Origin: a virus
IMG/VR virus record: IMGVR_UViG_3300009506_000206
Coordinates: 1-21,376 of that record
Direction: 5' to 3' (one strand)
Length of the DNA stretch: 21,376 nucleotides
Both the position numbers and the translations under genes were made by a program. Of this stretch, positions 8,395 to 15,042 are shown one piece after another (the first letter of the stretch is position 1; each line of letters starts with the position of its first letter). A model generated the notes under the pieces. The model saw only the letters and a program-made list of their open reading frames with translations. It searched no databases and was not told the DNA's origin.

Positions 8395-9185
8395 GATATG
8401 ACCCCTTCAACCTGCAATGTAGCTTGATAGTATGGCAGATTATGTGTTGCTTTAGGAGAATCCATACCATTTGGTTTAGACCATAATACTAATGCATCGC
8501 TATCATACACACCGGGATTCCAGTTAAAGAAAAATGGTTTAGTTTCTACAGCCTCAAGGAAGGTGCGAAAGTTACCCCGCATTTCCGTAGTGTTCATAAA
8601 TTCAAATTTTAATTCGCCTTCCACACCTTGTTTAATTAAGGATCGCCCAAGGAAGTTACCAGCTTGCGCAATATTGTTAATAATCTTATTTTGTCGATTG
8701 TCGTAAATATTTTGCCAACCAATGCGCAAGCCATGGGGCATGGTATATTTATTTCCAAGGAATAGCATACCAATTAACGCTTGATATGTTCCAAGTCCTG
8801 ACTCATAAGCTACGAGCCGCCAGTAGCGGTAACTTGCGCCAGAAACAGGAACAAATATCACGTCATCAGAATCAATTGGCACATTTTGAATTAGAACATT
8901 GCTTGATACAAAATTATCAGTGCTGCCACGAATCGCAACCACTGCATTAGCCCCTAGCGTTGAATAAACATTATGGAAAGCCATACCAAAGCAATCAGGT
9001 GTCATAGCGCTACCCATATCCAATGTCACTGTTTGGTATGCATTCGGCGTAGCAAGTTTCCACCATGTGTTAGACCGCCAATCGTAGGCATTCTCAACTT
9101 CATAGCCAGTTGCAGCCGCGACCTGTGGAGTAACACTGACAGCACTATCAAACCAGTTATTATATCCAATTATCGGGGTAGCCAT
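8391..9185 (-). CDS. Distal tail-like protein with discoidin/F5-8C-like N-terminal domain
   Basis: The 264-residue protein has an N-terminal domain (about 20-145) that looks like a galactose-binding or discoidin-type jelly roll. It reads from VENAYDWRSNTWWKL, through VTLDMGSAMTPDCFGMAFHN and VVAIRGSTDNF, to YRYWRLVAYES. The C-terminal part (about 150-264) contains GELKFEFMNTTEMRGNF, KPFFFNWNPGVYDSDALVLW and a closing beta strand typical of distal tail proteins that ring the tail tip. It sits between the tape measure and tail-tip genes, the usual place. The start ATG overlaps the tape measure stop by one base (TAATG). It probably connects the tail tube to the tip and may bind sugars on the host surface. 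Confidence 0.75.
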   Translation of the reverse strand: MATPIIGYNNWFDSAVSVTPQVAAATGYEVENAYDWRSNTWWKLATPNAYQTVTLDMGSAMTPDCFGMAFHNVYSTLGANAVVAIRGSTDNFVSSNVLIQNVPIDSDDVIFVPVSGASYRYWRLVAYESGLGTYQALIGMLFLGNKYTMPHGLRIGWQNIYDNRQNKIINNIAQAGNFLGRSLIKQGVEGELKFEFMNTTEMRGNFRTFLEAVETKPFFFNWNPGVYDSDALVLWSKPNGMDSPKATHNLPYYQATLQVEGVIS

Positions 9186-10867
9186 TATCCCACCGTGATT
9201 CCTTCAATAGATGCACCATCACGAATCAAATCGCTAATGCCTTCCATTACTTTAGTTAGCGTATTACGGCTAATAAAATCTGTTTCGCTGTCAATGGAAA
9301 GGTGAACTGTTGTGCCAGTTTTTGCCCCGGCAGTCGCAATAGATTCAATTCCTGTTATGGGATTGGCTGCTGTAGATACAGATGGATTAGCACCACCTCC
9401 AGTACTGCTGCCGCCACCACCACCGCCACCAAATGAGATACCAGTTACTTCAGCAAGTTTTTTAGCTTCAAAAGCCCCAGCAGCCGCGCCAAACGCAGCG
9501 CCTAGCACTGGCCCACCTATGCCAGCACCAATCTTATATGCACCAGATACAGCAGCAGGTATATTGGCAGCAGTTTCAGCAATACTTTGAAGTTTTGAAA
9601 TGCCAAATTGTTCCTTGGCCCCTTTCAATGCTTCTTTGCCTAAATTCTTTTGTTTCTTTTTCTCAATACCAACTGTTGCATTGGCAGCAGCATCCCCGGC
9701 TTTCTTGGCTTTAACAAAAGATTTTGAAACCCTGTCTGCCTGTTTTTCAGCCTCATCTGCCCACATTTGTAAACCTGTACTTGGCAACTCAGCTTCAGTT
9801 AATGCAGATAACTCTGCATATGTATCATTGAATACAGATGATGTTGCATCTGCAATATTTTTAAACGTATCATTAACTTTAACGGAAACACCCGGTATTG
9901 CATCAGCCAATTCAACTAAAGTTTCATAAACTTTATAAACACCATTTACAATACCAGCTACAACGCCTTGAAATACAGCATTGATCGTTTTCCAACCTAC
10001 TTTCACATAATACATAGCATCAAGCAAATAACCAATAACTTTTATAGCAATATTAATTCCACTGGAAACAGCATCAGCAAACCCACCTGAATCAACGGCG
10101 GCACCATAAAAATCATCTGCAATTTTCTTAATATATGGGGATAGCCCCACAGCAATACGATTGCCCAAACCTTCAACCGCTTTTTTTGCCCTTGTAATTG
10201 AGTCGTTTGCCTGTTCGACTTTATTCGTATCCACTCTATTTAATGCGGCACCAACAGCAATCAACTCATCTTTCATCTTGGCAAACTGCTTACTATTCAT
10301 ACTAGTTAGATTCAACATAGTAGCAGCACGAGCGCCATAAATATCTGTTGCAACAGCAAGTCTTTCAGTTTTATTACCAACTAATGCCAAAGCATCATTA
10401 ATTTTATTAAACTGTTGTTCAGGGGATAATTGCTGCAATTCCTTGGTATTGATTCCAAGAGCATCATAAGCGCGTGTATAGGTAGATAGCCCAGCATTAG
10501 CATCACGGATACTGCGTGCCATTTTTACCATGGCTTTATCGAATGTTTTTGTTTCTACACCAGCAAGATTGGCAGCCGTATGCATAGCAGTGAGAGATTC
10601 CGTAGCAATGCCTGTAGCATCAGACATTTTGCCAACTGCATCAATAGCTTTAAAAGATTGAACCGTAATGTAGCCAAGTGCAGCAGGCCCAGCAACAAAT
10701 GCCATAGCTTTGCCCGCACTAAACATGGATTTTTCAACACGGGCCATAGAACGGCGCATACGACGTGCAGACCGTTGAACCCGTGCAGATGTTTTATTTA
10801 AATTTTTATTAAATTCAGCAGTATTAAGCCCAAGGGATACAAACAAACTGCCTAATTTTGAAGCCAT
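9185..10867 (-). CDS. Tail tape measure protein
   Basis: The 560-residue protein is the third largest in the window and sits right after the tail assembly chaperone, as tape measures do. The N-terminus (LGSLFVSLGLNTAEFNKNL) and following basic helical region (RVQRSARRMRRSM) are typical, as is the GKMSDATGIATESLTAMHTAA segment of the TP901-type tape measure family. The middle has hydrophobic helices (INIAIKVIGYLLDAM; AVFQGVVAGIVNGVY), and the C-terminus has a Gly/Ser-rich linker near residues 475-495. At about 0.15 nm per residue, the length predicts a tail near 84 nm, shorter than lambda. The purine-rich AGGGGG ahead of ATG 10867 is a good ribosome site. Confidence 0.92.
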   Translation of the reverse strand: MASKLGSLFVSLGLNTAEFNKNLNKTSARVQRSARRMRRSMARVEKSMFSAGKAMAFVAGPAALGYITVQSFKAIDAVGKMSDATGIATESLTAMHTAANLAGVETKTFDKAMVKMARSIRDANAGLSTYTRAYDALGINTKELQQLSPEQQFNKINDALALVGNKTERLAVATDIYGARAATMLNLTSMNSKQFAKMKDELIAVGAALNRVDTNKVEQANDSITRAKKAVEGLGNRIAVGLSPYIKKIADDFYGAAVDSGGFADAVSSGINIAIKVIGYLLDAMYYVKVGWKTINAVFQGVVAGIVNGVYKVYETLVELADAIPGVSVKVNDTFKNIADATSSVFNDTYAELSALTEAELPSTGLQMWADEAEKQADRVSKSFVKAKKAGDAAANATVGIEKKKQKNLGKEALKGAKEQFGISKLQSIAETAANIPAAVSGAYKIGAGIGGPVLGAAFGAAAGAFEAKKLAEVTGISFGGGGGGGSSTGGGANPSVSTAANPITGIESIATAGAKTGTTVHLSIDSETDFISRNTLTKVMEGISDLIRDGASIEGITVG

Positions 10868-10876
10868 GCTCGCCCC

Positions 10877-11388
10877 CTATCGTTTTTCACGTCCTGCTTT
10901 AATTTTAAAATATATATTCCACGCCTTATATTCGGATACCGACATTTTATTAATTTCAGCTAACGTCTTACCTAGTATTTCGGCTAACTGAAATCTAAAA
11001 TAAATATCAGCATCCGCTATAAGTTTTTTTCAATTTCACTATCATCGATTTCATCACCAGCCATTTCTACAACAATGCGCTCAATGACACTTGGATCAAC
11101 TTCTTTCATGAAATATATTTTATGAGCATTAGCAAAAAGTCTGTTGCCATTTTCGTCCCGCGCACGCTCAATCAGAGTTTGTGCAAGTGATTCCAATGAA
11201 CTTTGTGCAACATACTTAAAAATCCGATTTTGTTGTTCCAAATTCATCGGCTTATAGTATATTTTCAAAGGTTCCTGTGGATTATCACCCCATTCCGGCA
11301 CTACAACAAAACTCAAATCTTCTGAATCAAGCTGTTGTTTAAAATGTGCACGGGCACGCTCAATCACTGCATTACCTTTAGCACTCAT
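10877..11388 (-). CDS. Tail assembly chaperone, -1 frameshift product (gpGT-like)
   Basis: Reading the first 122 codons from ATG 11388 and slipping back one base at A AAA AAC (11029-11023) gives 48 more residues before TAG at 10879-10877, for about 170 residues in all. The extension begins LIADADIYFRFQLAEILGK, continues with LAEINKMSVSEYKAWNIYF and ends GREKR. The RFQLAEILGKTL / INKMSVSEYKAW pattern is characteristic of the gpT-like part of tail chaperones. The T-like segment has no start codon or ribosome site of its own, so fusion is the natural reading. In lambda the gpG:gpGT ratio is essential for tail assembly, with gpGT recruiting tail tube protein and tape measure. The frameshift itself is inferred from sequence. 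Confidence 0.85.
11017..11388 (-). CDS. Tail assembly chaperone, zero-frame product (gpG-like)
   Basis: The 123-residue zero-frame product starts MSAKGNAVIERARAHF, is mixed alpha/beta, and ends with an acidic tail (GDEIDDSEIEKNL). Its position between tail tube and tape measure genes, and the frameshift extension, identify it as the short chaperone that coats the tape measure and is absent from the virion. The start ATG lies one base after the tail tube stop, suggesting coupling. The stop TAG comes one codon after the slippery heptamer, so most ribosomes should terminate here. Confidence 0.85.
   Translation of the reverse strand: MSAKGNAVIERARAHFKQQLDSEDLSFVVVPEWGDNPQEPLKIYYKPMNLEQQNRIFKYVAQSSLESLAQTLIERARDENGNRLFANAHKIYFMKEVDPSVIERIVVEMAGDEIDDSEIEKNL
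11023..11029 (-). promoter_or_regulatory. Programmed -1 ribosomal frameshift site, A AAA AAC
   Basis: On the minus strand the zero-frame codons GAA AAA AAC TTA TAG contain the heptamer A AAA AAC in the required X XXY YYZ register. It is one of the most efficient bacterial slippery sequences. The -1 frame stays open for 48 codons and encodes a gpT-like sequence. I did not identify a clear stimulatory hairpin directly downstream; the following DNA is AT-rich. Confidence 0.85.
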
Positions 11389-11389
11389 A

Positions 11390-11782
11390 TTATACTACCG
11401 CCGCTTGTGTTAATGTGCCCGTACCTTGGAAAGTAAAAGAGACAGTAACAGTTGAGCCAATCGCATTACTCAATGAAATACCAGTAATGATACCGGTGCC
11501 AGAGAAATGCTGATCACCAGTAGTTTCGCCTTCAGGATATAAATCCAATGAAACACTTGCACCAATAGTCAATGCTTGTTGGCCAGTTGAATCAGTGCCA
11601 TCGTAATGACCTTCAATAGAGCCATTCCAGCTAGACTTATCAGCGATAAAGGTTTTTGCGGTATCGGTCAATTCAGTATCTTCAACCGTATCCGCGGACT
11701 GTTCCAACGTGAACCCAGTTACTTCAAGAATGGTGTTGGCACCAACCTTTACTACGCCTTGACTTCCTATAGTAGTAGCCAT
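11390..11782 (-). CDS. Major tail tube protein
   Basis: The 130-residue protein is almost wholly beta (VVKVGANTILEVTGFTL, SWNGSIEGHYDGTDSTGQ, SVSLDLYPEGETTGD, STVTVSFTFQGTGTL), matching the compact tail tube proteins of TP901-1/GTA-like siphophages. These stack as hexamer rings to form the DNA conduit. A very strong ribosome site (AAGGGGGTGA) precedes its ATG, fitting a protein needed in many copies. It lies between the tail terminator block and the chaperone, the expected order. There is no added Ig-like C-terminal domain. Confidence 0.85.
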   Translation of the reverse strand: MATTIGSQGVVKVGANTILEVTGFTLEQSADTVEDTELTDTAKTFIADKSSWNGSIEGHYDGTDSTGQQALTIGASVSLDLYPEGETTGDQHFSGTGIITGISLSNAIGSTVTVSFTFQGTGTLTQAAVV

Positions 11783-14313: not shown

Positions 14314-14508
14314 TTATGCCTTTGCACTTTTCTTCTTTGACGCTGCCTTGGGGGCGGTGCCTTTGACAACCTCAGCAACACCCCGACGCAACCAACGATC
14401 ACGGGATGCTTCATTATCAACCGTGATGATTTCACCTGCTTTAATTACAGTACCAGTTTCATCCTTAATACTGTAATCTTTTAAAAATCTTAAATTATAG
14501 GTTGTCAT
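14314..14508 (-). CDS. Small basic protein following the capsid block (64 aa)
   Basis: The 64-residue protein starts MTTYNLRFLKDYSIKDE, contains KAGEIITVDNEASRDRWLRRGVAEVV, a small beta/helix module seen in short phage head-region proteins, and ends in a basic AAPK/KKK-type tail (KAASKKKSAKA). It is the first gene after the internal terminator at 14526-14561, so its expression depends on read-through or processing. The function is unknown. A head-assembly or DNA-contact role is possible from the basic tail but not shown. Confidence 0.7.
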   Translation of the reverse strand: MTTYNLRFLKDYSIKDETGTVIKAGEIITVDNEASRDRWLRRGVAEVVKGTAPKAASKKKSAKA

Positions 14509-14583: not shown

Positions 14584-15042
14584 TTAGACAGTTACAATTT
14601 CAGCAACTGATGATGCATCACTATCGCTTGCAACACCTGTGCGAGCATTCATACCAAACAGCACTGCACCAGCATCACTGGTTGCAATGCCAATGGTCAT
14701 GCTGACCCGGACATACTCAAAACCATTTTGAATATCCAGATCATCCGCACGGAAGTTAATAACAGCCTGTTTGTCGGAATCATCCGTACCAGCTTGAGTA
14801 AGCTGAGTAATATCAGAACCCGTCAAATCCTTGGCACCGGTACCACCGCTATCAGATGCCTGCTCAATTTTAGCATCCAGTGTGGCACTGGCACCCAAGG
14901 TACCTGCCTGAATAATTGCCATCAGTTGCTGAAAGTCTGATGCTTTAACCCATCCGGTAGTTACCGTGGATGCAGCATAAGCATCAGGATCAATCACGCC
15001 AACAACAGCAGCAATTTCACTACCAATCGCATTCAAGTTCAT
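14584..15042 (-). CDS. Probable capsid decoration/stabilisation protein
   Basis: The 152-residue protein lies directly after the major capsid gene, starts MNLNAIGSEIAAVVGVID, and is beta-rich with small residues. It shows TGWVKASDFQQLMAIIQAGTL, ATLDAKIEQASDSGGTGAKDL, then FEYVRVSMTIGIATSDAGAV. I recall this pattern in small structural proteins next to HK97-fold capsid genes. AGAGGA eight bases upstream of the ATG is a strong ribosome site, and the gene ends just before a terminator. It therefore shares the highest-output segment with the capsid gene, as expected for a decoration protein. The decoration role is inferred. Confidence 0.65.
   Translation of the reverse strand: MNLNAIGSEIAAVVGVIDPDAYAASTVTTGWVKASDFQQLMAIIQAGTLGASATLDAKIEQASDSGGTGAKDLTGSDITQLTQAGTDDSDKQAVINFRADDLDIQNGFEYVRVSMTIGIATSDAGAVLFGMNARTGVASDSDASSVAEIVTV

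Follow-up and report, generated by a model that had tools for sequence, protein, structure and literature searches.

A metagenomic virus contig, analysed over its whole 21,376-base virus record (the window), very probably carries a G/GT tail-chaperone cassette of an HK97/lambda-type siphophage, in which a -1 frameshift at A_AAA_AAC, aided by a downstream RNA stem, would produce a long form of the tail assembly chaperone. Sequence analysis and comparison established the anatomy of the locus, the family identity of its product, the conservation of the heptamer and of the -1 tail, a predicted stem, and covariation of such stems in relatives. The initial annotation had proposed a lambda-G/GT-like -1 frameshift giving a long chaperone and had suggested that the heptamer alone might set the ratio of the products. 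The comparison strongly supported the former proposal, and the stem and the covariation of its counterparts in related phages argued against the latter.

The minus strand of the window encodes a head and tail module of HK97 type, with genes in the order Terminase_4 (TerS), TerL, portal, S49 peptidase (protease), and HK97 capsid, followed by gp6-like connector, head completion protein, HK97-gp10, tail terminator, tail tube, the chaperone gene, and tape measure. The chaperone gene has the lambda-type placement between the major tail protein gene (phrog_1407) and the tape measure gene (phrog_9483) (Table 1). The 3' end of its 0-frame ORF reads GAA AAA AAC TTA TAG. In the -1 frame, a TGA lies immediately 5' of the heptamer; the frame is thereafter open for 48 codons (LIADADIYFRFQLAEILGKTLAEINKMSVSEYKAWNIYFKIKAGREKR), and the gap between the end of this tail and the tape measure gene is 9 bases. 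The predicted frameshift fusion has 170 aa. The initial annotation had described the heptamer as being in the correct frame one codon before the stop, the -1 frame as open for 48 codons without a start of its own, and positions 10868-11016 as empty unless the frameshift is assumed. All three descriptions held: the heptamer was seen at minus strand 11029-11023, the earliest ATG/GTG/TTG in the tail was codon 27 (MSVSEY), and the ORF check found nothing else on the coding strand in that interval. Elsewhere in the window, the plus strand carries a partial gene at the edge (3-518), weakly similar to DUF932 and opposite in direction to the structural operon, and a perfect 15-base tandem repeat of 6.5 copies (GAAGAAAGTGGCCAA; 1663-1760) that codes for a KVAKK repeat within ORF 1646-2143.

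Table 1. Features of the tail-chaperone locus of the window, and relatives without a canonical heptamer
Feature	Position or locus	Strand	Remarks
Major tail (tube) protein gene	11390..11782	-	Directly upstream; phrog_1407 major tail protein, E 1.3e-13
0-frame ORF, short tail assembly chaperone (gpG-like), 123 aa	11017..11388	-	Stop TAG 11019-11017; phrog_344, phrog_16513; fold nearest 2OB9
Slippery heptamer A_AAA_AAC	11023..11029	-	In frame, X_XXY_YYZ register, one codon before stop
-1 extension, 48 codons (LIADAD...GREKR)	10877..11022	-	Stop TAG 10879-10877; first tail codon CTT re-uses base 11023
5' arm of long stem, CGGAUGCUGAUAUUU	11002..11016	-	Predicted; begins 6 nt after heptamer
3' arm of long stem, AAAUGUCGGUAUCCG	10933..10947	-	Predicted; 15 bp with 5' arm, G-U allowed
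5' arm of inner stem, GAUUUCAGUUAGC	10983..10995	-	Within long stem; minimum-energy structure only
3' arm of inner stem, GUUAGCUGAAAUU	10952..10964	-	Inner stem of 13 bp; predicted
Tape measure protein gene	9185..10867	-	Directly downstream; phrog_9483 tail length tape measure protein, E 7.7e-74
Relatives without canonical heptamer (n = 13)	L080, L083, L349-L354, L356, L357, L359, L361, L362		End in ...GAA AAG TAA or ...CAA AAG TAA

Profile searches placed the predicted products among tail assembly chaperones. The 160-position profile phrog_16513 (tail assembly chaperone) matched residues 6-161 of the fusion, thereby spanning the junction, with an E value of 1.7e-9, and matched the 0-frame part alone more weakly (E 1.2e-5); phrog_344, also annotated as tail assembly chaperone, matched the 0-frame protein as well, the two profiles reaching about 1e-5. 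The -1 tail alone matched a tail protein profile (phrog_337, E 3e-6), and a Pfam search of the chaperone and the tail returned nothing above threshold; the term gpT-like, which the initial annotation had applied to the tail, is thus fair, albeit weak by sequence for the tail alone. Structural prediction of the 0-frame protein by AlphaFold2 (pLDDT 84), followed by a Foldseek search, gave the HK97 tail chaperone (PDB ID: 2OB9) as the top solved structure (probability 1.00, E 7e-3, TM-score about 0.5), and the viral structure matches included phage tail assembly chaperones. Place, profile, and fold, each of them moderate evidence alone, support the lambda-type identity of the locus and the identification of the 0-frame product as a putative gpG-like tail assembly chaperone.

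The -1 extension behaved as coding sequence across relatives. At least 34 open -1 codons were present in all 370 relatives. Four groups were examined further: each of their sequences had stops in both other frames, and variable sites of the tail were most frequent at third positions of the -1 codons; the Roseobacter type, for example, showed variabilities of 0.156, 0.101, and 0.380 at the three positions. The tails had the common pattern LA..LGKT..E......E...W.AY. The position of a potential start was not conserved, and the representative of one cluster of 58 members (L105) had no ATG/GTG/TTG anywhere in the -1 tail frame. Judged from these sequences, the extension is conserved as protein and lacks a start of its own, as in lambda-type cassettes.

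Next, we compared the slippery site among homologous loci. With the window's chaperone alone as query, the search over viral contigs returned one relative (L002); the tape measure protein as query over viral contigs found none, and scanning genome contigs with a two-sequence alignment gave 70 pattern hits, none of which was a relative. The bare heptamer word is unremarkable in the window (four occurrences, about seven expected), and the unusual feature is its position at the end of the ORF, not its mere presence. Of 251 homologous loci drawn from IMG/VR and phage records, 249 had a canonical X_XXY_YYZ heptamer separated from the stop by 0-1 codons, and it was present in 22 of the 23 clusters that these loci formed at 70% identity; among other ORFs of the same loci, the control, it was found at this position in 1 of 128. 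Two further sets of relatives showed it in 40/40 and 68/80, one locus of the latter set being truncated by the contig end. Combined, 357 of 370 relatives had a canonical heptamer at the ORF end: A_AAA_AAC, the commonest, in 237, A_AAA_AAG in 93, A_AAA_AAT in 17, G_GGA_AAC, another slippery heptamer in the same position, in 9, and A_AAA_AAA in 1. Since loci may overlap between searches, the 87 non-redundant tails, 84 with a heptamer, provide the safer number. The heptamer was also kept against codon bias: in L143 and in the phi3LM21 region, whose GC content is 62%, AAA makes up 32-33% of the codons for Lys.

The 13 exceptions have GAA AAG or CAA AAG before the stop (Table 1), which contains the tetramer A_AAG, a type of motif that shifts in Escherichia coli (PMC4066793). 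These sequences suggest a shift to a tetramer slip site with retention of the -1 tail. The initial annotation had named conservation of the heptamer in relatives as a check, and its destruction by synonymous changes in close relatives as evidence against frameshifting; the heptamer proved to be kept, and such loss was not the case.

We then examined RNA structure downstream of the heptamer. The stem proper (10933-11016) was predicted to fold at -31.9 kcal/mol, with a z-score of -7.4. A 60-nt context showed little structure (z -1.1), a 100-nt context folded at -34.9 kcal/mol (z -6.9), and a 102-nt context counted from the last heptamer base reached z -9.3, the lowest of 1,065 segments of the minus strand; against dinucleotide shuffles, z-scores of the stem region ranged from -6.9 to -9.3. 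The raw folding energy is unexceptional, being equalled or bettered in 13 of 2,128 segments, and only the composition-corrected z-score stands out. When codons were resampled with the amino acids preserved, none of 300 variants folded as well (z -4.5); the best single helix of the window alone was less striking under this resampling (p = 0.009). The stem region was not unusually paired in a 48-nt context, and the structural signal therefore depends on the distant arm. Scanning the window against Rfam gave no match. A stable predicted structure is thus present a few nucleotides after the heptamer, the arrangement of a downstream RNA stimulator, and the earlier statement that no strong downstream hairpin exists was wrong. 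The second strongest folding signal (z -7.9) lies at about 14616-14515 of the minus strand, between ORF 14584-15042 and ORF 14314-14508; a terminator-like site was sought at this junction and none was found.

Stems of the same design were formed by phage DSL-LC06 and its 40 metagenomic relatives, which comprise 34 distinct sequences. Their 5' arm begins 5-7 nt downstream of the heptamer, and the 3' arm follows about 60 nt later, in the part coding for SVLE or similar. In a gap-free alignment of this group, which is the largest set and whose register is shifted by 2 nt relative to that of the window, the named helix was paired in 91.6% of cells, against 28-41% after sliding one arm by 1-3 columns. 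Cells with double changes numbered 28, compared with 12 in shuffles, and 0 of 500 shuffles reached 28. RNAalifold predicted the same helix from this alignment. In several pairs, an amino-acid change in one arm was matched by a silent change opposite, as in ACT to GTT (T to V) against AGT to AGC (S). A second group, that of L044, whose register is that of the window when a one-codon insertion is allowed for, showed compensatory changes of its own (A-U to G-C, G-C to A-U, and A-U to U-A). Because shuffling of the 3' letters leaves relatedness in place, this evidence rests mainly on the slid-register comparison and on the second group. All of it is drawn from related phages, the searches having yielded no close relative of the window.

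The exact register of the window was found only in L014; L042 and L347 had the DSL-LC06 register, and L002 had a comparable 16-bp stem whose partner lies nearer. The covariance model built from the DSL-LC06 group hit window positions 10921-11023 at 45.6 bits, compared with 25.7 bits for a sequence-only model. The long stem was absent when Roseobacter-type and Pelagibacter-type relatives were folded and compared, and it is therefore not universal. In Moraxella phage Mcat10 (L012, 1500-1640), a short hairpin of another kind, GCCGAC-AAAA-GTCGGC, begins about 5 nt downstream of A_AAA_AAC, and the -1 tail is longer, at 109 aa.

Upstream stimulators varied as well. We defined a Shine-Dalgarno (SD)-like sequence as GAGG/GGAG/AGGA/GGNGG/AGGKG about 6-17 nt before the slip motif. 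None was found at this distance in the window; 53 of 87 non-redundant relatives had one at a stimulating distance, including 14 of 15 of the Roseobacter type, and GAGG/AGGA occurred upstream in Roseobacter types and in many DSL-LC06 relatives. The simplest reading of these sequences is that the heptamer and the -1 product are conserved, and that the stimulator would vary among a stem, an SD-like sequence, both, or neither. A broader reading, about as likely as not, is that a large, mostly unannotated and mainly metagenomic family of tail chaperones uses a covarying long-range stem, which begins 5-7 nt past the slip site and has some 50-70 nt of -1 coding sequence between its arms. This stem would have been repeatedly swapped with or joined by an SD-like sequence, with the heptamer and the -1 product retained throughout; the repeated exchange is suggested by lineages that have an SD-like sequence instead of or beside the stem.

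Based on these data, most ribosomes would stop at the UAG at 11019 and release the 123-aa short chaperone. In a minority, the Lys-tRNA on AAA in the P site and the Asn-tRNA on AAC in the A site would move back by one base onto AAA AAA, and the slipped ribosomes would read 48 more codons, giving a 170-aa chaperone with a C-terminal T-like domain. The stem beginning 6 nt downstream probably holds the ribosome over the slippery site and so raises the slip rate, in which case the ratio of short to long product would be set by the heptamer and the stem together. By analogy with lambda, the G part may coat the tape measure protein and the T part may recruit tail-tube subunits. The occurrence of slippage, its rate, the stimulatory effect of the stem, and these protein roles are inferred. 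A_AAA_AAC is much less shift-prone than A_AAA_AAG in E. coli (PMC5009743), and the frameshift rate may accordingly be low; a strong structure added to a low-efficiency heptamer could reasonably keep the ratio low and fixed.

The stimulatory role of the predicted stem, taken alone, is likely, though less certain than the cassette itself. The competing explanation, that the heptamer alone sets the ratio and the stem is a by-product of the coding sequence with no role, is improbable. In its favour, many heptamers shift in E. coli without stimulators, the proven insertion-sequence cluster with A_AAA_AAC has no established stimulator (PMC4066793), and relatives of the Roseobacter and Pelagibacter types do without the long stem. 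Set against this are the excess stability of the fold with the protein held fixed and its rank as the lowest z-score on the strand, the covariation in two related groups, including amino-acid changes matched by silent ones, and the conserved spacer of 5-7 nt between heptamer and stem. The strong 15-bp stem downstream and the compensatory changes in related sequences indicate that the heptamer probably does not act alone.

Other explanations dispense with ribosomal frameshifting. If RNA polymerase slipped on the A7 run, a mixed mRNA pool would yield the long product, and the runs of seven consecutive A in the window and nine in HTVC202P would suit such transcriptional slippage. This is nevertheless very unlikely, since homologues have G_GGA_AAC, with no run above 3, or only A6 (phi3LM21 and L143), so that a homopolymer run is not present in all members; moreover, the tandem X_XXY_YYZ register in the 0 frame, which a polymerase would not need, is conserved. 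Still less probable is a separate small gene in the -1 frame with its own start or re-initiation. A small ORF is annotated there in some phages (phi3LM21_p41, and Microcystis and Moraxella records), but no start precedes codon 27 in the window, no start is conserved among relatives, and the representative of one large cluster has none at all; in addition, a separate gene would leave the conserved heptamer unexplained, and the profile spans the junction. Homopolymer runs in a metagenomic contig are prone to error, and a sequencing or assembly indel that split one 170-aa gene, or a decayed locus, could in principle imitate the arrangement with no frameshifting at all. We consider this scarcely credible: the same arrangement recurs in 370 phage records and contigs, some of them complete genomes of isolates, and in 357 the frame changes at a slippery site, which excludes an assembly error. 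Ribosomal frameshifting at the heptamer, probably assisted by the stem, thus remained our preferred reading.

This locus adds a well-supported G/GT cassette and shows that nearly all members of a broad phage family have this arrangement, which annotation usually misses. The heptamer, the upstream SD-like sequence, and the downstream stem vary naturally in this family at one conserved gene, and how phages tune the chaperone ratio thereby becomes directly testable. A long chaperone made by frameshifting is already known from lambda G/GT and many counterparts, and A_AAA_AAC is known from HCTV-2 (PMC5009743); the part that is possibly new is the covarying long-range stem, together with SD-like sequences in other lineages. 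The literature searched, largely openly available papers, gave no account of such a covarying stem at the slip sites of tail chaperones, which is weak evidence of novelty.

Among known systems, phage lambda G/GT (gpG/gpGT) is similar in having a short 0-frame chaperone and a -1 long form beside the tape measure gene, with the slip site close to the end of the first ORF (PMC5009743). It differs in its heptamer, G_GGA_AAG, compared with A_AAA_AAC in the window, for which a long stem is predicted and no Pfam match was obtained. The slippery sequence is thus different from that of lambda, as the initial annotation had stated, but not unusual, being the commonest in the family and reported for the same gene pair, g-t, of haloarchaeal virus HCTV-2 (PMC5009743), a virus of an archaeon. 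The HK97 tail assembly chaperone (2OB9) is the best solved-structure match of the predicted protein, and the neighbouring genes are HK97-type; however, its identity to the window protein is only about 20%, with a TM-score of about 0.5.

Homologous chaperones, 25-35% identical to that of the window, occur in the Pelagibacter phages HTVC202P and HTVC026P, in DSL-LC06, in Sinorhizobium phage phi3LM21, and in the Roseobacter phages CRP-811, CRP-406, CRP-823, and CRP-831. In each, the ORF ends with A_AAA_AAC and a homologous -1 tail follows. DSL-LC06 has the long stem, which the Roseobacter and Pelagibacter types lack. The records of HTVC202P, HTVC026P, HTVC112P, DSL-LC06, and the Roseobacter CRP phages do not join the -1 extension to the chaperone as a frameshift product; that of HTVC112P places an ORF on the opposite strand in the gap, and in phi3LM21 a piece of the -1 tail is annotated as a separate gene (phi3LM21_p41; L006 2893-3003).

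The signals of dnaX and of IS911 and the IS3 family share an A-rich heptamer, to which an SD-like sequence upstream and a structure downstream may be added (PMC4066793; PMC5009743), but belong to different genes, and the 15-bp stem of the window has 54 nt between its arms and falls within the -1 coding region. UUUUUUC is reported for SPP1 (PMC6316719). The tail-gene signal predicted for corynephage phi16 likewise combines an SD-like GAGG, a slippery sequence, and a downstream RNA structure, but its slippery sequence is GGGGGAA, its structure is an H-type pseudoknot, and it was predicted from one genome (PMC5506516).
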